Of a stretch of 64,000 bases of DNA, positions 9,162-63,768 are shown piece by piece. Both the position numbers and the translations under genes were made by a program. Every line of letters begins with the position of its first letter. Position 1 is the stretch's first letter. Source of the DNA: Macrobrachium rosenbergii (lineage: Eukaryota; Arthropoda; Malacostraca; Decapoda; Palaemonidae); NCBI RefSeq assembly GCF_040412425.1, contig NC_089753.1, positions 34,806,413-34,870,412 of the forward strand. Reading direction: 5' to 3'. The notes under the pieces are model-generated. The model worked only from the letters and a program-made list of their open reading frames with translations, was not told the origin of the DNA and did no database searches.

Positions 9162-21778
<12,617 letters not shown>

Positions 21779-26658: not shown

Positions 26659-26725
26659 TCAGTCATCATTTATCTCTTCTCTTGGACTGCCGTTTTGTCC
26701 TGGCGATCGGGATCTGCTACGGTCT
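26659..26725 (-). CDS. SRSF7: Copy A exon 5: C-terminal tail and stop
   Basis: The acceptor is TTTTGTTCCAG. It encodes [21 protein letters not shown] then TGA (26661-26659 on the minus strand). It differs from copy B in two residues (G and R against A and K). Confidence 0.9.
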
Positions 26726-29424
26726 CTGGAACAAAAGAGCTGTGCATAAAAATCTTATGTCTAAATCTAAAACTCCCAAGTGAACTAAAACAATTTTATT
26801 TTGGCAGAAACAAAAATTTCACAAAGCAATGCCAATTCCCCTACCAATGTTACCAAAAAACCTGAATGCAATATTTTAACTTGATCAAATTGGGGGCAGT
26901 ATTTGAAAAATTCTCAGAAAAATCAACAAACTCACAAATGACCCAAGACAAATTTTGTTGCAAACGATTTTTCATGAAAATCCATCTCCCTCTATTTTCA
27001 AATTCTACTTTTTCAAGAACAATACTACAGTTAAGGTATCAAAATTAGTTAATTTAGTACCAGTATATCAAATTAAACTTTCAAGCAGCCTTATCATCAT
27101 CATCATATACTACAATTTTCCAATTCACCCAAGTAGTCTAGAGAGAGGCAAACCGAAATAAATAACCCAACCTTTACTAACCCATATGATTTTTTTGAGA
27201 TATACTTACCCTTTGTCATCATGTGATCGAGAACGTTCCCTTTCTCTTGATTGAGACCTGGATCTAGAACCTCCCCTCGAACGGCTGCGATCTCTTGAGC
27301 GTGAGCGTGATCTAGACCTGTCTCTAGAGCGACTTCTTTCTCTTGACCTTGAATGATCCCTAGTCCTACTCCTGGACCTGTCACGAGAGCGAGACCTAGA
27401 GCGAGTGTAAGACCTCCTCCGTCTGGGAGAGCGACTTCTACTTCGGGACCTCGAGTACCTATGCACAAAAGGCCGTTAGTACAAACGAAAGATGCCAACT
27501 AACGGATTAGTGCAAATCCAATGCCCTGAGTATGAAGGATGCCAGTCTTTGGCTATTACTTCCAACCCTCTCACGATCCTACATGTAAGGGGGTCTGCCA
27601 TGCACGAAAATAGGGCCTGGATCTTTGGGGTAGGAGGAGAACCGCTTCAGCTCAACCTGGCGTGTATAGGCATGACAAGCGCGTTTTCAGTTACATCCTA
27701 AACTCGTTATGGTCTGCCCAATGTACTGTAGTACTAATCAAATTCTAATGAATTCCAAATGACTATAATCTCCATAAAATCTTTTCTACCAATTATTTTA
27801 TATTCTTACTGGCATCAGGAGACCATAAATCAGATTTGCACAGACACTTCGATGGATATAGCAATTACTTACATGAACTGCCTCTGGCTGAAATGATATA
27901 AATAGAAGTAAAGGGGACTAGGAAACTCAGTGAGTAATCTACCTAAATTAAAATAACGATCAATTAAATTTTACATCATTAAGCTTACTGTGCCTCTGTC
28001 TAGTCATGTATCTCAGAAGGTTGTCTGAAGGTCTGACGTTCGACCACGTAGGTAGGTAGGGTCATGTAACTGCGGTGTTTAACCTGCGCTGAACGCTCAT
28101 GTAACTGCGATGTTCAAGTAGAGCACGATAGAGTTCTACGCTGAATGACTGGCAGGCAGTAAGCTTTACAAATGAGGCCATGAAGTTCAAGGAGTGTGGC
28201 CAGAAGGAATTCAAGATGGAGTGCGATGATCTCAATTGACAGAGCGACGATCTTACTACTCGTTTGGGAATGGGGATCTCAGCCGTTTTGCCTACAAAAT
28301 ATGAGTGTGTTTAATAGCAATTCCTTCTTTTTGATAATTACAACCCCCTTATCTTTTACTTATTTTCTCTTTTTTTTTTTTTTTCTTTTTTAATGTAGAC
28401 CACACAAGGCCTTAAGACAGGGCTAAGGCAGATTTAGCATCACAAGAAAGAACTCCTTTGAATGGAAAAAATAAAAAAAAAAAAAAAGTAAAATAAGAGA
28501 GGAAAGCAGCTCCCATTTATGACCTACATGAACCCTAGAATGGACTTATTCTGGCCAAACTAACCACTCGACCACCAACCACCCCTCCCAACTACACCAA
28601 AAAACTTTGCTTACTGACCTAGTTCAGGACTTTAGGATTCGAGCAATAACCACCAGATGCAGAATCGTCATTTCTTATTTACAAAACAAAAACAATACGC
28701 TACCTGGAGTAACGTCGGCTGTACCTATAGCAATCCCTGGCGTAGTGTCCCCTTTCGCCACACTCATAGCATCGGTCCTCTGGATGAAAAGGCCGGCCTC
28801 TGCGCGGTGGAGGGCCCCTGAAGCGGCCTCTGCTCTTTCCTGTGGATAGTTCTACACGCACCCGGCGACCGCATATTGTTCTGAAAAATAAATTCGTTGT
28901 AAATACTTCGCTGACCTTGAAAACTTCACAGCCTTCTCAAACTAATTCTGTCCTACGGCGTCTTCAGTCCCTAAGTACGTTAAACTTTGTTTTGCATGCG
29001 ATAACAGATCCTCTAAACCAGGGGTTCTTAACTTTTCAATGATTCCAGACCCCCAATGGATTGTCCAATATGGTCCCATACCCCCTTCACTTCGACTGTC
29101 GAAATACATTAAATAAAATAAATACCAATACCCAGAGATCAAGTCTCATACCCCCAAGGGGTATGGATACCCCCGGTTAAGAACCCCTGCTCTAAACATT
29201 CCGTAAACCAAAAATGCAGACACTCACCTTCCATCCAGTCCCCTGACGGCGTCTTCAGCATCTCTTACATCTTCAAATTCCACAAAAGCAAAGCCTGGTG
29301 GATTTCTGGCCACCCACACATTTCTCAGGGGGCCATACTTTGAAAAAGCTTCCTCTAACTCCTGCTTGGAAGCACCAGAACCCAAGTCTCCAACATAGAC
29401 TTTGCAGTCTAATGCTGAAGGCAT
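26659..29424 (-). CDS. SRSF7: SR splicing factor, SRSF7/9G8 type, copy A
   Basis: An RNA-binding SR protein that acts in pre-mRNA splice-site choice and mRNA export. Coding exons, minus strand: 29424-29228, 28880-28704, 27458-27210 and 26725-26659; 690 nt, 229 residues, all phases agree. Residues about 7-75 form an RRM with RNP2 (KVYVGDL) and RNP1 (GFAFVEF). Residues about 103-116 form a CCHC knuckle, [14 protein letters not shown] (CX2CX4HX4C), the feature that separates SRSF7 from SRSF3. An RS/RD-rich domain follows, and the protein ends [10 protein letters not shown] non-coding first exon lies near 35296-35430, giving a 5.9-kb intron 1. A second complete copy lies 14.6 kb upstream in the same orientation. 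Intron 3 holds a conserved candidate poison exon, which implies autoregulation by NMD. Human SRSF7 is of similar length. Drosophila x16 is the likely insect counterpart. Confidence 0.94.
27210..27458 (-). CDS. SRSF7: Copy A exon 4: RS domain
   Basis: The acceptor is TGTGCATAG|GTACTC and the donor is AAAGG|GTAAGT. Dense RS, RD and RSRS dipeptides after SPRRRRSY, 249 nt, the same length as in copy B. Phosphorylation of such domains by SRPK/CLK kinases is established for the family. Confidence 0.92.
27873..27887 (-). other. Candidate 15-nt microexon, copy A
   Basis: CCAGAGGCAGTTCAT on the minus strand is flanked by ATATCATTTCAG and GTAAGTAATT. It would insert five codons in frame between exons 3 and 4 (S-Q-R-Q-F-M across the junctions). 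It is identical in copy B at 42338-42352. Confidence 0.62.
27989..28148 (-). other. Candidate poison cassette exon, copy A
   Basis: On the minus strand the acceptor is TACTGCCTGCCAG and the donor is AGGCACA|GTAAGC, bounding 160 nt. Joined to exon 3 (phase 2) the frame reads S-H-S-A-stop (TAG). An alternative acceptor ATTTTGTAG (exon start 28291) would read R-Q-N-G-stop (TGA). Either form predicts NMD. Inference from sequence; no transcript evidence. Confidence 0.7.
28704..28880 (-). CDS. SRSF7: Copy A exon 3: RRM end and CCHC zinc knuckle
   Basis: The acceptor is TTTTTCAG|AACAAT and the donor is CTCCAG|GTAGCG. It encodes [12 protein letters not shown], a [13 protein letters not shown] linker and the CCHC knuckle, ending YSRRYSR across the junction. 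Confidence 0.93.
29019..29189. mobile_element. hAT-like MITE with 8-bp target duplication
   Basis: A 171-bp element with inverted ends CAGGGGTTCTTAAC and its complement GTTAAGAACCCCTG. It is flanked by perfect 8-bp repeats CTCTAAAC (29011-29018 and 29190-29197). Eight-bp duplications and CAGGGG-type ends fit the hAT superfamily. It lies in intron 2 of copy A and is absent from copy B. Confidence 0.9.
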
Positions 29425-41245: not shown

Positions 41246-41312
41246 TCAGTCATCATTTATCTCTTCCTTGGGACTGCCATTCTGTGCCGGTGATCGAGAT
41301 CTGCTACGGTCT
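41246..41312 (-). CDS. SRSF7: Copy B exon 5: C-terminal tail and stop
   Basis: The acceptor is CATATTGCAG. It encodes [19 protein letters not shown] and two more Asp residues, then TGA. Confidence 0.9.
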
Positions 41313-43991
41313 CTGCAATATGAGAAAAAAGTTTAAAATGCAACATAAACCTTGTGGTTACATCTCATCCATGGCATAATTCAACATTCAATATTTATAT
41401 ATAATCTGATTACTACTCAGTGAAATCCTTAACAAGTCAAAACTCTGAACCTAAGCAACATACAAGCCACTACATACAATCAACCAGGCATTTCATAAAT
41501 TTAACTTTATAGTAAATAGAAATTAAAACTGTACAAAAAATTGAAACTTATGACAAAATTTCAGGTGCGTTTTGTTTTAGAAGATTAATGGGGGGAAAAG
41601 CTAAGATTGTACCACTGGCCTAACAATTTGCAAACGAATCTTTACAAGTACTTACCCTTTTTCATCATGTGATCGTGAACGGTCACGTTCTCTTGACTGT
41701 GACCGAGATCTGGAACCACCTCTAGAACGGCTGCGATCTCTGGAACGTGAGCGTGACCTGGATCTGTCTCTGGAACGGCTTCTGTCTCTTGATCTTGAAC
41801 GATCCCTAGTCCTACTCCTGGACCGGTCACGTGAGCGTGATCTTGAACGGGTGTAAGATCTCCTCCGTCTGGGAGAGCGACTTCTACTTCGGGACCTCGA
41901 GTACCTATGCACAAAGAACTGTTAGTATACGGGAAAGATGTTGACTATAAGATTAGTGCAAATCCAATTCCCTGAGTATGGAGGATGCCAGTCTGTGTTT
42001 AACTTCCAATCCCTTCACGATCCTACATGTAAGGGGGGTCTGCCATGCACGAAAATAGGGCCTGGATTTTTGGGGTGGGAGGAGGGCCGCTTCAGATGAA
42101 CCTGGCGTGTATAGGCATGACAAGCACGTTTTCAGTACATCCCACTCGTTATGGTCTGCCCTATGTACCTGCTATTAATGTTCACTTAAATATAACATTG
42201 CTTTATTCCAATGGAATACTCTTCAAAAATACTAAATTTGATTTTCTTTTTAAAAAGTAAGCATACTGACATAAGGAGACCATAAATCAGATTTGCACAG
42301 ACACTTCAATGGATATTCTCATTCATCAATTACTTACATGAACTGCCTCTGGCTGAAATGATATAAATAGAAGTAAAGGGGACTAGGAAACTCAGTGAGT
42401 AATCTACCTAAATTAAAATAACGATCAATTAAATTTTACATCATTAAGCTTACTGTGCCTCTGTCTAGAGTCATGTATCTCAGAAGGTTGTCTGAAGGTC
42501 TGACGTTCGACCACGTAGGTAGTAGGGTCATGTAACTGCGGTGTTTAACCTGCGCTGAACGCTCATGTAACTGCGATGTTCAAGTAGAGCACGATAGAGT
42601 TCTACGCTGAATGACTGGCAGGCAGTAAGCTTTACAAATGAGGCCATGAAGTTCAAGGAGTGTGGCCAGAAGGAATTCAAGATGGAGTGCGATGATCTCA
42701 ATTGACAGAGCGACGATCTTACTACTCGTTTGGGAATGGGGATCTCAGCCGTTTTGCCTACAAAATATGAGTGTGTTTAATAGCAATTCCTTCTTTTTGA
42801 TATTTACAACCCCCTTATCTTTTACTTATTTTCTCTTTTTTTTCTTTTTTTTTTTTTATGTAGACCACACAAGGCCTTAAGACAGGGCTAAGGCAGATTA
42901 AGCATCACAAGAAAGAAACTCCTTTGAATGGAAAAATAAAACAAAAAACAAAACAAAAAAGAAGAAAGCATCTCCCATTTAAGACCTACATGAAACCTAA
43001 GTATGGGCTTATACTAAACCAACCACTCAACCACCCACCCACCAACCCTCCCAACTACAGTACCCCAAAAAAAGATTGCTTACTGACCAAGCTCAGGACT
43101 TTAGGATTCGTGCAATAACGACCAGATGCAGAATCACGGTTTCTCTCATAAAAAAGGAAAAAAAGTTACACTACCTGGAGTGACGTCGGCTGTACCTATA
43201 GCAATCCCTGGCATAGTGCCCTCTTTCACCACATTCGTAACATCTGTCCTCCGGATGAAAAGGGCGACCTCTACGAGGGGGAGGACCTCTAAAACGCCCT
43301 CTGCTTTTACCTGTGGATAGTTCTACACGCACCCTGCGACCGCATATTGTTCTGAAAAATAACAGAAGACGTGTAAACAAACAGCAATAAAATACTGGAA
43401 AACGTATAAACAAACAGCAATAAAGTACTGGAAAACGTGTAAACAAACAGCAATAAAATACTGGAAAAAGTGTAAACAAACAGCAATAAAACGTGTAAAC
43501 AAACAGCAATAAAATACTGGAAAACGTGTAAACAAACAGCAATAAAATACTGGAGTGTTACTCATACATACAACTACCATACAAATCATATTAAAAAATC
43601 CTTCCCCTTGATTCTATACCATTAACAAGAATTTTCCTACAAAAAACCATGTAAATACTAAAGGGAAATTATGAACAAATCTTGGAGCTCTTGAAACTGC
43701 TTACTTGTATCTCTCAACCATATTAATAAAAACCAGCACTATTGCCAAGTTGGCAACAAATACCTTTTCAATGTTAAAAAGAAATAAGACTTACCTGCCA
43801 TCTAGTCCTCTGACAGCGTCTTCCGCATCTCTCACATCCTCAAATTCGACGAAGGCAAAACCAGGTGGATTTCTGGCGACCCATACATTTCTAAGAGGAC
43901 CGTAAAATGAAAAGGTTTCCTCTAACTCCTGTTTGGATGCACCAGAACCTAAGTCCCCAACATAGACTTTGCAGTCTAATGCTGAAGGCAT
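41246..43991 (-). CDS. SRSF7: SR splicing factor, SRSF7/9G8 type, copy B
   Basis: A second complete SR protein gene. Coding exons, minus strand: 43991-43795, 43351-43175, 41904-41656 and 41312-41246; 690 nt, 229 residues, the same exon lengths and phases as copy A. The domain order is the same: RRM ([14 protein letters not shown]), CCHC knuckle, RS domain, SPKEEINDD end. In the RRM, copy B reads EETFSFYG where copy A reads EEAFSKYG. The replacement of Lys by Phe after alpha-1 could affect RNA or partner binding. The knuckle exon ends YSRRHSR rather than YSRRYSR. All splice sites are intact and no frame is broken, so I see no sign of pseudogenisation. A non-coding exon 1 lies at about 47617-47720. 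Intron 3 carries the same near-invariant poison-exon block as copy A. Confidence 0.94.
41656..41904 (-). CDS. SRSF7: Copy B exon 4: RS domain
   Basis: 249 nt as in copy A, same acceptor TGTGCATAG and donor AAAAGG|GTAAGT. RD dipeptides replace the DHS and RERS variants of copy A, leaving a more regular RS/RD repeat. Confidence 0.92.
42338..42352 (-). other. Candidate 15-nt microexon, copy B
   Basis: Identical to the copy A microexon with identical flanking splice sites. Confidence 0.62.
42454..42614 (-). other. Candidate poison cassette exon, copy B
   Basis: Same acceptor and donor as copy A, 161 nt. The frame after exon 3 again reads S-H-S-A-stop. The small indels between copies do not respect a reading frame, as expected for a non-coding cassette. 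Confidence 0.7.
43175..43351 (-). CDS. SRSF7: Copy B exon 3: RRM end and CCHC knuckle
   Basis: 177 nt. Nearly the same protein as copy A exon 3 but with many third-position changes. Its acceptor lies about 15 bp from a minisatellite in the upstream intron. Confidence 0.93.
43367..43556 (-). repeat. 33-bp minisatellite, ~6 units, intron 2 of copy B
   Basis: Units of CGTGTAAACAAACAGCAATA plus AAATACTGGAAAA; one unit is shortened. On the minus strand each complete unit reads as a T-rich tract ending CACGTTTTCCAG, which looks like a 3' splice site. Copy A has no such array. Confidence 0.9.
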
Positions 43992-45251: not shown

Positions 45252-45550
45252 AATGGAATATAGAATTTAGGCCAAAGCCCAAGCACTGGGACCTATGAGG
45301 TCATTCAGTGCTGAAACGGAAATCAACAATAAAAGGTTTGAAAGGTGCAACAGAAGGAAAACCTCGCAGCTGCACTAGGAATCAATTGTTAGGAGAGGGT
45401 GGAAAGATGCAAGAAAGAGAATATGAAAGGAAGTACAGTAAAAGGAACAAAAGGGGTAGCAGCTAAGGGCTGAGGGCATGCTGCAAAGAACCTCAAGTTA
45501 TGCCTACAGTGCACCACATGAGCAGCACTGACGGCACTAACCCCTTACGG
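45252..45550 (+). repeat. REP-A copy in intron 1 of SRSF7 copy B
   Basis: Near full length, plus orientation (antisense to the gene). Absent from copy A. Confidence 0.85.
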
Positions 45551-57071: not shown

Positions 57072-57371
57072 GAATGGAATATAGAGTTTAGGCCAAAGGC
57101 CAAGCACTGGGACCTATGAGGTCATTCAGCGCTGGAAAGGAAATTGACAGTAAGTAGGTTTGAAAGGTGTAACTGGAGGAAAACCTCGCAGTTGCACTAT
57201 GAAATAATTGTTTGGAGAGGGTGGATAGCTAGATGGAAGAAATATTATATGAATGGAAGTACAGTAAAAGGAATGAAAGGGGTTGCAGCTAGGGGCCGAA
57301 GGGACTCTGCAAAGAACCTTTACTAATGCCTACAGTGCACCCCCTGAGGTGCACTGATGGCACTACCCCTA
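57072..57371 (+). repeat. REP-A copy
   Basis: Near full length, plus orientation, with intact head and tail motifs. Confidence 0.85.
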
Positions 57372-61700: not shown

Positions 61701-63768
61701 CTTTGTGTGTGTGCGCGCATCAACAGGCTTATCTCGAGAACGGGTGAACCGGTCTTGATGAACGCGGGTGAAAACATTCATTTGGTGAATTGAATTGAAT
61801 TGAATATAGAATTTAGGCCAAAGGCCAAGCGCTGGGACCTATGAGGTCATTCAGCGCTGAAGCGGAATTGGCAGTAAAAGGTTTGAAAGGTGTAACGGGA
61901 GGAAAACCTCGCAGTTGCACCATGAATCAGTTGTTAGGAGAGGGTGGAAAGTAAGATGGAAGAAAGAGAATATGAGAGGAGGCAGAGTAAAAGAAATGAA
62001 AGTGGTTGCAGCTAGGGGCGGAAGGCACGCTGCAATTAACCTTAAGTAATGCCTACAGTGCACCGCACGAGGTTCATTTGGTGAATCCCTGCATATGACT
62101 GACTTTCTGTGAACACTGGTTCAATTAGCCGTATATCTAACAAACTTTAACGAAGTTTTTAACACGATTCACTATGTTCCAGGAAACAGTTTTCCAGATT
62201 TTGGTGTGGATCCAAGTTTATTATTGTCACTGATTTGCCGAGTCATAGTATACATGAAAGAAAGTGTAATAATAATGAACAGACATTCATTGGTAACAGT
62301 TCAATAGATTAGTACATTGCTGAAATACTTTAGCAAGGGTATGTTCGTACTAAGAGCCATTCTCTCTCTCTCTCTCTCTCTTTAACAGCTCAGTGGTCTG
62401 GTAAAACTAAGGTATACTTTTTTTTAACAGACACCAACCCCACATTAGGCGCAACGTAATGGACAGCGTCCACAAGTTGGTAACGGCAGCGGCTCAGTAC
62501 GAATACTCCTACTCCTCTCAGGAGGCCGAAAGTGGCGCCGAGAAGTTCGCCGAATGGCCGCCTCTGGAGGCGATTCTCGAAGCCCCCGACCTCGATTCCT
62601 CTTGGTCGGATTCCATAGAGTGCCTGTGGAAGGACCCTGCGATACAGGCGGCCTACCAGAGGCGGAACGAATTCCATCTGATGACGAATGCCGATTACTT
62701 CATCGCTCACGCCACGAGAATCTTGCAGGAAGACTACGTCCCCACCATCGACGACATCCTGCGCATGCGCATCGTGACGCGGGGAGCCGTCACAAAGACC
62801 TACGAGCTGACGAACATCAGGATGACCTTGCACGACATGGGAGGTCAGCGGCCTGAGAGAAAAGCCTGGGTCAATCAGCTCGACTATCCGTCGGCTATTC
62901 TGTTTGTGGCGTCCTTGTCTGAATACGACCAGACTGTGGAGGAAGCCGAAGAGGTAAATGAAAATGAGGCGGAGAGTCGTCCATTTTCGATAGTTTTCGC
63001 CAGATCTTTGTCTTGTTACTTGCTTATTTTCCTTATGATTGATATATTTGCTTAGTTACTGTCTTAACGCCACCTTCTTTCTTTATACATACGCGTAGTT
63101 CCTCAGTTAATGCGCTGCTGTTAAAACTTTTTTTTTTTTTAACCTATGTAGTTCCTCATTGGACGGGTTGGTATCGTTCTCGGATAGCACTCTAATGGAC
63201 CCACGTTCGATTCTCCGACCGGCCAATGAAGAATGAGAGAAATTTATTTCTGGTGATAGAAATCCATTTCTCGTTACAATGTGGTTCGGATTCCACAATA
63301 AGCTGTAGGTCCCGTTGCTAGGTAACCAATTGGTTCTTAGCCACGTAAGATATATCTAATCCTTCGGGCCAGCCCTCTCTAGGAGAGCTGTTAATCAGCT
63401 CAGTGGTCTGGTTAAACTAAGGTATACTTAACTTTACCTTTAATATGTAAGTATTTTCTTTAATGCTTCATCTATTTGATTCATTCGTTCACATTTCCTT
63501 CATTCACTGGGCTTATTAGTTTCATTCAAGAAGAAAGAATCATTACCCCCAACATATAGATACACACATTCACTTGAAAATATCATTTCTCACCGGACCT
63601 TTTTTCTTTCGCCCAGTCCAAGAACCGCGTGCAAGAGAGCCTGGACATTTACGAGCAGCTGCTCGGCTACTCGCCCTTCGACACGACGCCCGTCATCCTC
63701 CTGCTGAACAAGAGCGACGTCTTCAGCGGCAAGATCAAGGAACAGCCGCTCAAGAAGTACTTCCCGGG
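58612..63768 (+). CDS. Divergent heterotrimeric G protein alpha subunit (partial)
   Basis: A membrane-associated GTPase that relays GPCR signals. Exons 58612-58767, 60919-61037, 62431-62953 and 63617-63768 give 950 nt with consistent phases. The first exon with the start, and the last exons with the G5 TCAT motif and C-terminal helix, are not visible. G1 reads GASDTGKST (canonical GAGESGKST), G2 LRMRIVTRG with the Arg and Thr kept, G3 DMGGQR with the Gln kept, and G4 NKSD. The helical domain lies between G1 and G2 (about residues 92-210 of the visible part). The N-terminal part has a hydrophobic IWQLIVTILQQFVCC instead of the usual charged Gbeta-gamma-binding helix. It does not fit Gi, Gs, Gq or G12 well; it is perhaps an arthropod-specific class like Drosophila Galpha-f. 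Intact frames and splice sites argue that it is functional. Confidence 0.9.
58793..59165 (+). repeat. REP-H copy 2, in the G alpha intron
   Basis: Sister of 55085-55466. The long stem (AAACCACTAAGGCTAGAGGG .. CATCTATAGCCTCAGTAGTT) and the 3' hairpin GCGCCGAAGAAACTTCGGCG are both present. It begins about 25 bp after the upstream exon. Confidence 0.82.
59447..60175 (+). repeat. ~149-bp tandem repeat, 5 units, in the G alpha intron
   Basis: Units run CCTCTCCTCAGAAATGGTTT, then CAGCATTTAATAGCAAAAGC, then TTGCTGTATTTAATGAAGCC, then CCCTACAAATGAATTCCACC. The first unit is shortened and the last diverges. Middle units are nearly identical. Confidence 0.9.
60180..60918. other. G alpha intron, no feature seen
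   Basis: Short self-similar stretches containing CAGTATCTGCAAAAT recur near 60613 and 60735. No exon is supported until the acceptor at 60917-60918. Confidence 0.45.
60919..61037 (+). CDS. G alpha exon with P-loop (G1)
   Basis: The acceptor is CCTCCCCAAG and the donor is GAGAAG|GTAGGA. It encodes LLVVGASDTGKSTFMRQMRL, aligned with the canonical Galpha beta-1/P-loop/alpha-1 segment. Confidence 0.9.
61304..61595. mobile_element. Foldback element with ~75-bp inverted arms and 8-bp duplication
   Basis: 292 bp. Left arm GGTGCTACTTTGGCTTGCTA .. GGCGGAAGCTCAATGGGACG; the right arm is its complement with a few differences. Flanking 8-mers are ACATGTTG (61296-61303) and ACGTGTTG (61596-61603), seven of eight identical, again hAT-like. 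It contains CGCCGTGTTTAGTACTAGCC. Confidence 0.9.
61800..62072 (+). repeat. REP-A copy in the G alpha intron
   Basis: Near full length but lacking the terminal GGCACTACCC. Preceded by a short GAATT repeat. Confidence 0.83.
62384..62420 (+). mobile_element. SINE tail fragment at a splice acceptor
   Basis: CAGCTCAGTGGTCTGGTAAA and AACTAAGGTATACTT match the 3' end of the SINE at 63143. A T-run and the exon acceptor follow at once (AG at 62429-62430). Confidence 0.82.
62431..62953 (+). CDS. G alpha exon: helical domain, switch I and II
   Basis: The acceptor is TATACTTTTTTTTAACAG and the donor is GAAGAG|GTAAAT. It carries TNADYFIAHATRILQ, DDILRMRIVTRG, LHDMGGQRPERKAW and ILFVASLSEYDQ in canonical order. 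GC content is clearly higher than in the flanking introns. Confidence 0.92.
63143..63425 (+). mobile_element. tRNA-derived SINE, full length
   Basis: The head has a B-box-like GTTCGATTCTCC and an upstream TTGGTATCG A-box-like segment, then CGGCCAATGAAG. The middle has AACCAATTGGTTCTTAGCC and CCTTCGGGCCAGCC. The tail is CTCAGTGGTCTGGTTAAACT. It lies in the last visible G alpha intron. Confidence 0.8.
63617..63768 (+). CDS. G alpha exon with NKxD (G4)
   Basis: The acceptor is TTTCGCCCAG and the donor is CCCGG|GTATGA. It encodes NRVQESLDIYEQLL, VILLLNKSDVF and KKYFPG; it ends in phase 2, so the gene continues past the window. Confidence 0.9.

Follow-up and report, generated by a model that had tools for sequence, protein, structure and literature searches.

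How can a piece of intron be free of substitutions between two duplicated genes when the coding exons around it have diverged? This question is raised by a 64,000-nt stretch of the genome of the prawn Macrobrachium rosenbergii (the whole stretch is called the window in the following), in which two tandem genes for the serine/arginine-rich (SR) splicing factor SRSF7, SRSF7-A and SRSF7-B, are both encoded on the minus strand and share a block in the intron separating the zinc-knuckle exon from the exon of the arginine/serine (RS) domain. Judged from the sequence, we consider it probable (about 85%) that this block represents the poison exon of decapod SRSF7, a cassette exon kept along with its splice signals in both tandem copies by purifying selection on the RNA. 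In mammals, SR proteins restrict their own abundance by way of such exons. The two copies of the block are:

27862..28336, minus strand: substitution-free block of copy A, comprising the predicted cassette exon and the adjoining intron over 45 nt upstream and 11 nt downstream (0/474 against B)
42327..42802, minus strand: substitution-free block of copy B (from the alignment with A)

Their global alignment contains 474 aligned columns without any substitution; the copies differ by one indel of 2 nt and one of 1 nt, which both fall within tiny tandem repeats as read off the alignment, and the 95% upper bound of the divergence is 0.63%. When the block was used as query against the 3.18-Gb assembly we obtained two matches, both inside the window, and a part of it used as a DNA pattern gave no match in viral contigs or the genomes of bacteria, which is no surprise for an animal sequence. 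The initial annotation had described 27868-28300 and 42333-42767 as differing by two small indels only, which the alignment reproduces (432 aligned columns, 0 substitutions, indels of 2 nt and 1 nt). It had also called the element an intron block; the conservation is real, but the description as plain intron has to be replaced, as the element is exon-like and the gene is located on the minus strand.

In both genes the coding sequence (CDS) has 230 codons including the stop and encodes an RRM (PF00076), a CCHC zinc knuckle (PF00098) and long RS repeats, with both Pfam scores above the cut-offs. One RRM, one CCHC zinc knuckle and a C-terminal RS domain define the SRSF7 (9G8) subfamily, and all three are present in A and B. 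A search with the first 125 residues of protein A gave SRSF3 and SRSF7 chains as the two best PDB matches, and compared by eye protein A equals the Macrobrachium rosenbergii entry P0004 except for one internal skip. The coding exons are:

29228..29424, minus strand: SRSF7-A RRM coding exon (CDS and PF00076)
28704..28880, minus strand: SRSF7-A coding exon for the RRM end and the CCHC zinc knuckle (CDS and PF00098; weak donor CAG/GTAGCG, the slash here and below marking the splice site)
27210..27458, minus strand: SRSF7-A RS-domain coding exon (CDS)
26659..26725, minus strand: SRSF7-A last coding exon (CDS)
43795..43991, minus strand: SRSF7-B RRM coding exon (CDS)
43175..43351, minus strand: SRSF7-B zinc-knuckle coding exon (CDS; weak donor CAG/GTAGTG)
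41656..41904, minus strand: SRSF7-B RS-domain coding exon (CDS)
41246..41312, minus strand: SRSF7-B last coding exon (CDS)

Between the two CDS 79 of 229 third positions differ, in agreement with the many third-position changes reported before, as do 48 of the 105 four-fold sites (Fisher p ~5e-41 for these against the 0/474 of the block). The synonymous divergence dS over the whole CDS amounts to 0.76 (NG86), 0.58 (maximum likelihood) or 0.40 (YN00), and the lowest partial value, from the RS part alone, is 0.23 (YN00); the nonsynonymous divergence dN is 0.021-0.025, with 9 amino-acid changes. A direct comparison of the intron divergence with dS (0/474 against 0.40-0.76) thus bears out the initial annotation, which had the block evolving more slowly than synonymous sites.

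The flanks also bear on a trivial explanation, namely an assembly artefact in the form of a duplicated haplotype or a collapsed repeat. The three coding exons flanking the block differ by ~13% between the copies, the intron that precedes the zinc-knuckle exon cannot be aligned, and a miniature inverted-repeat transposable element (MITE) with its target-site duplication is present in A only. Flanks as divergent as these argue against an artefact, the copies are not a duplicated haplotype, nothing was found in favour of this explanation, and we regard it as practically negligible.

A splice-site scan of the intron gave the anatomy of the block. The scores are based on textbook frequencies in a model that is not arthropod-trained, and the listing threshold was 5 bits. 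The features found are:

27873..28291, minus strand: predicted poison cassette exon of copy A, 419 nt (splice-site scan; the acceptor matches the junction in proteins P0009 and P0011)
42338..42757, minus strand: predicted poison cassette exon of copy B, 420 nt (splice-site scan)
28279..28281, minus strand: first in-frame stop (TGA) after the zinc-knuckle/cassette join in copy A, product ending in RQNG-stop (from CDS frame and translation)
27989 (last exon base), minus strand: alternative donor within the cassette exon, ACA/GTAAGC, 5.7 bits
27873..27887, minus strand: possible 15-nt in-frame microexon, TTTCAG/CCAGAGGCAGTTCAT/GTAAGT (splice-site scan only)

The cassette acceptor TTTTGTAG/GCAAAACGG at 28291 (42757 in B) scores 7.5 bits and the donor CAT/GTAAGT at 27873 (42338 in B) 9.4 bits, the latter being the highest-scoring listed donor in the intron. 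Use of the acceptor is visible in the predicted proteins P0009 and P0011, that of the donor is predicted. The edges of the block fit such an exon, with the acceptor 45 nt inside the upstream and the donor 11 nt inside the downstream edge. The donors of the zinc-knuckle exon are weak in both copies (GTAGCG in A and GTAGTG in B, under the 5-bit threshold), as expected for regulated splicing. Joining the zinc-knuckle exon to the cassette exon gives the translation R-Q-N-G-stop in A as well as in B, and this stop is computed to lie ~400 nt ahead of the cassette donor in both copies, farther than the 50 nt by which the premature stop of a poison exon should precede the last junction. The internal donor at 27989 is not used in P0011, which reads through it, and the translation FSQRQFM across the possible microexon is conserved in P0121.

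From this anatomy we can propose how the exon might work. If it is skipped, the zinc-knuckle exon would join the RS exon and a full-length SR protein would be made. If it is included, translation would halt four codons in, ~400 nt before the next exon junction, and the mRNA would be expected to undergo nonsense-mediated decay (NMD) according to the established NMD rules, or else would yield a protein without RS domain. With one and the same element in both paralogues, any factor that governs inclusion should act on both genes together. NMD, autoregulation and the joint control of A and B are what we infer from the sequence.

The initial annotation had named conservation across genera as the sign of selection and identity within this genome alone as that of gene conversion. 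A protein search with SRSF7-A gave 3,588 matches at E ≤0.001, and among the best 120 of the 3,588 a first set of 12 proteins and a further 8, all from insects, were examined. Two of these 20 contain the cassette exon, the SRSF7-like isoform X3 of Palaemon carinicauda (P0009) and a protein from a decapod-like contig (P0011), and in both the zinc-knuckle exon is joined to it at the predicted acceptor. Using the exon-encoded part of P0009 as query, three proteins were found among three candidates (P0009, P0011 and P0121), and with P0121 as query the same three were again found among 29 candidates. P0121, likewise from a decapod-like contig, is unspliced at the acceptor and spans the short upstream flank, the exon and the donor. 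By similarity the sources of P0011 and P0121 are presumably decapods; over exons 1-2 (124 residues) P0011 shows 7 differences from A, 9 from B and 6 from lobster and crayfish.

Of the 59 residues in the tail of P0009, the first of which straddles the junction, 58 match the exon translation, and P0009 terminates where the window has its next in-frame stop. In a frameshift-tolerant comparison 59 of its 61 codons are identical, counting the added end stop and the junction codon, which is one of the two differences. For P0011 the same comparison gives 88/106 identical codons against B and 87/105 against A, for P0121 126/157 and 124/157, respectively. The alignment scores of the three proteins (178-299) are to be compared with 17.5-31.5 for 15 shuffled-protein controls (five per protein) and 15.0-28.5 for nine control alignments to other parts of this gene. 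All nucleotide differences between species are derived from protein sequences and are lower bounds: P0009 is compatible with 179 of 180 nt of the B exon (at least 1/180), while P0011 and P0121 require at least 19/315 and 30/423 substitutions against block B, respectively (at least 6-7%), plus indels. Ultraconserved elements are defined by 200 bp or more that are identical between species. The 474 substitution-free bases, with their two indels, come from a comparison of paralogues within one genome, and over the distance to the decapod-like contigs, which are at least 6-7% different with indels, the element is not ultraconserved.

With the exon found in Palaemon carinicauda and two decapod-like contigs, selection is favoured; the cross-genus conservation means that selection acts on the element and, at the level of sequence comparison, demonstrates purifying selection on an RNA element. 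Gene conversion alone, acting on a block without functional constraint, would go along with the tandem arrangement of the copies and with the sharp fall of identity just beyond 27817, but neither the retention of the block in these three sources, far above shuffled and same-gene controls, nor the match between block edges and splice sites would follow from it. We rejected it as the sole cause on the cross-genus matches and give it very little credit. Only slightly more credit goes to a transcriptional enhancer or non-coding RNA that lies in the intron by chance. The edges of the conservation fit the splice sites, predicted proteins of two sources join into the exon, there is no unusual fold, and an Rfam search of 27400-28760 gave no match at the gathering score; the five listed matches (E 0.3-0.77) are all outside the exon.

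What is kept in the exon is, on these comparisons, the nucleotide sequence and not the frame. The exon measures 419 nt in A and 420 nt in B, and P0011 and P0121 follow the nucleotides via several frame shifts; as no frame has been preserved, it is not a protein that is under constraint. Protein coding as the cause of the conservation was rejected on the frame-breaking indels together with a first stop that varies between species. The block might instead of a poison exon encode an alternative C-terminus of a functional, truncated SRSF7, as P0009 and P0011, both of them protein entries, keep an open frame over the first ~60 and ~110 codons of the exon. However, TGA is the fifth codon in both copies of the window, the indels between A and B break the frame, and P0011 and P0121 retain nucleotides rather than a frame, which makes an alternative C-terminus improbable, if less so than a chance enhancer.

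Several observations weigh against a poison exon. Inclusion of the exon and NMD are predictions for this genome, just three database proteins with the cassette exon were found, and P0009 is a database-predicted isoform. The exon is absent from seven other decapod entries (Homarus, Procambarus, Chionoecetes, two Petrolisthes and two Macrobrachium), which look like other isoforms and would then be uninformative either way. The first stop is not conserved, being TGA in both copies of the window, serine in P0009 from Palaemon and tryptophan in P0011. The RNA fold of the exon is not unusual (z -0.71, with 23 of 100 shuffles as good). Binding motifs of SRSF7, SRSF3 and TRA2 are not clearly enriched in the copy-A exon when motif counts are compared with shuffles; the largest excess, for C[AT][AT]C (13 against 9.4 expected), is reached by 75 of 500 shuffles, and GAYGAY does not occur (count 0).

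Whether selection alone accounts for the complete absence of substitutions between A and B is a separate question. The initial annotation had offered selection or local gene conversion; selection stands, but as the sole cause of zero substitutions it is not established, and conversion may act too, given that the decapod-like contigs differ from B by at least 6-7%. A poison exon under selection could in addition have been homogenized between the two copies, 14 kb apart, by a recent conversion tract of ~630 nt (roughly 27817-28452). This is a refinement of the poison-exon explanation and does not exclude it, and we see the odds of such a tract as even. The minimum numbers of substitutions in P0011 and P0121 given above speak for it, as does the comparison with exons 1-2, over which proteins A and B differ at 3/124 residues and P0011 differs from them at 7 and 9/124; scaling by this ratio predicts roughly ten or more substitutions in the block under steady selection alone, and 0 are seen. 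Near-identity also extends into 28337-28452 (4/115), where P0121 aligns poorly up to ~28363, the part it covers.

On the other hand, the substitutions within 27817-28452 avoid the core (0/474 in the core against 5/158 outside, p 0.0009, two of the 5 lying in a poly-T run), conserved patches beyond the tract (27567-27725 and 28610-28663) show a broader constraint on the intron, and the rate estimates are based on very small counts. Against Palaemon (at least 1/180) zero substitutions would fit selection alone, with P(0) ~0.07 at equal age. Conversion should make paralogues more identical than orthologues, and the values are 0/474 for A and B and at least 1/180 for B and P0009, the latter a bound from protein. 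P0009 differs from A at 2/124 and from B at 1/124 residues over exons 1-2 and shares two of the three residues distinguishing A and B with B. It may thus belong to copy B, and the SRSF7 duplication may predate the split of Palaemon and Macrobrachium; both suggestions rest on the thin evidence of two residues.

The rest of the intron between the zinc-knuckle and RS exons varies strongly in its divergence between A and B. Between block and RS exon it is 19% at 27459-27566, 7% at 27567-27725, 47% at 27726-27816 and 2% at 27817-27859; above the block it is 3.5% at 28337-28452, 25% at 28453-28609 and 7% at 28610-28663. Two of these segments deserve a separate entry:

27567..27725, minus strand: second conserved intron patch of copy A, in the cassette-to-RS interval (11 substitutions in 156 aligned columns, 7%)
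28337..28452, minus strand: intron flank on the upstream side, nearly the same in both copies, candidate gene-conversion overhang (4/115 differ)

The patch at 27567-27725 is parted from the block by the 47%-different segment 27726-27816 and is possibly a further splicing-regulatory element. At 27411-27469 the start of the RS exon and the neighbouring intron are nearly unchanged between A and B, third positions included, and the remaining exon differs.

The unalignable intron that links the RRM exon to the zinc-knuckle exon differs by 54%, partly because A carries the MITE and B a tandem repeat, and after removal of the MITE just an 11-nt and a 10-nt match are left. The MITE is located at 29019-29189 in copy A, has a length of 171 bp, with CAGGGGTTCTTAAC as its terminal inverted repeats and CTCTAAAC as an exact target-site duplication of 8 bp, and has no counterpart in the intron of copy B; from its features we take it to be hAT-like. 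The tandem repeat of copy B, built on GTGTAAACAAACAGCAATAAAATACTGGAAAA, lies before the zinc-knuckle exon at ~43365-43555, and none was seen in A. A dispersed repeat of ~290 bp occurs in the window in at least 5 copies (1920-2218, 15338-15639, 45256-45543, 57077-57368 and 61802-62064) with 84-88% identity to the copy at 1920.

An analogous block, which we count in favour of a poison exon in SRSF7, is found in a second SR pair of this genome. The two SRSF3-like genes are located on contig C12 near 117,038,000-117,070,000, 30 kb apart, and their RRM exons are saturated at silent sites (45/183 bases differ, NG86 dS is undefined) with 3/61 residues differing, including the first. Downstream of the second RRM exon 132 nt of non-coding sequence show 1 mismatch; they are rich in CACC repeats and partly of low complexity, and by eye the conserved stretch starts near the acceptor-like CCCATTACAG/GAC. 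This acceptor is not among the SRSF3-like sites above a 7.5-bit threshold. With an acceptor below the threshold and a partly low-complexity sequence, the block, a further candidate for a conserved poison exon in this genome, is a lead and not a result.

Discussion of ultraconserved poison exons has centred mostly on vertebrates. Mammalian SRSF7 reportedly contains an ultraconserved poison cassette exon, which is said to go back to Lareau 2007 and Konigs 2020. As in that case, the prawn cassette belongs to the same gene family, contains an in-frame stop and combines a non-coding exon with extreme conservation; the difference is that the DNA comparison in the prawn is one between paralogues, and that the other genera are known through predicted proteins alone. 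In Drosophila, Rbp1 and Rbp1-like are said to be a cross-regulating pair coupled by unproductive splicing. They, too, are duplicated arthropod SR genes, of the SRSF3 type and with a different splicing event.

According to PMC10533491, human SRSF7 carries its poison exon in intron 3, and the intron with the prawn cassette is also the one following exon 3 if an inferred 5' untranslated exon is counted. The paralogues SRSF4 and SRSF6 share a homologous poison exon according to Lareau and Brenner 2015 (PMC4379411), so that they, like the prawn pair, retained it in duplicated SR genes; the prawn paralogues differ from them, as described there, by being tandem and by a block with 0 substitutions in 474 aligned bases that is better conserved than their own coding exons. 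In insects, the Tribolium SRSF7 isoforms X1 and X2 (long P0016 and short P0089) diverge just past the zinc-knuckle region, by eye at the decapod junction, and the position of the exon may thus be older than the decapods. Such a split would be expected with an unproductive exon or site in this intron. The truncated beetle isoforms (P0089 from Tribolium, P0097 and P0101) end at a corresponding junction. They carry short tail peptides that by eye show no relation to the decapod exon, and the same is true of a truncated amphipod protein (P0113, Hyalella). The initial annotation had proposed here an independent decapod counterpart of the mammalian exon. The splice signals and RQNG-stop give it the anatomy of a poison exon, but an independent origin is not established in view of the beetle junction and of the intron 3 position in human SRSF7.

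No report of the element in arthropods, crustaceans, shrimp or prawns was found among the listed titles and abstract starts of the open-access literature searched, and the term poison exon does not appear in the accessible part of the shrimp SRSF paper PMC12250561. On its sequence features, the prawn exon would join the known class of ultraconserved SR-gene poison exons, with the twist that the tandem paralogues have preserved it better than their coding exons. Tentatively, and with the odds somewhat against it, the two tandem SRSF7 genes might form one dosage unit, in which selection and repeated conversion limited to the regulatory exon keep the shared poison exon identical, so that the RNA switch would evolve in concert while the coding exons diverge. 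A tandem pair with a poison exon better kept than its CDS allows selection to be told from conversion via related genomes. For the poison exons of most human SR genes repeated evolution has been argued (Lareau and Brenner, PMC4379411), and a decapod exon in an intron that looks to correspond to that of human and beetle SRSF7 lets an ancestral be tested against a repeated origin.

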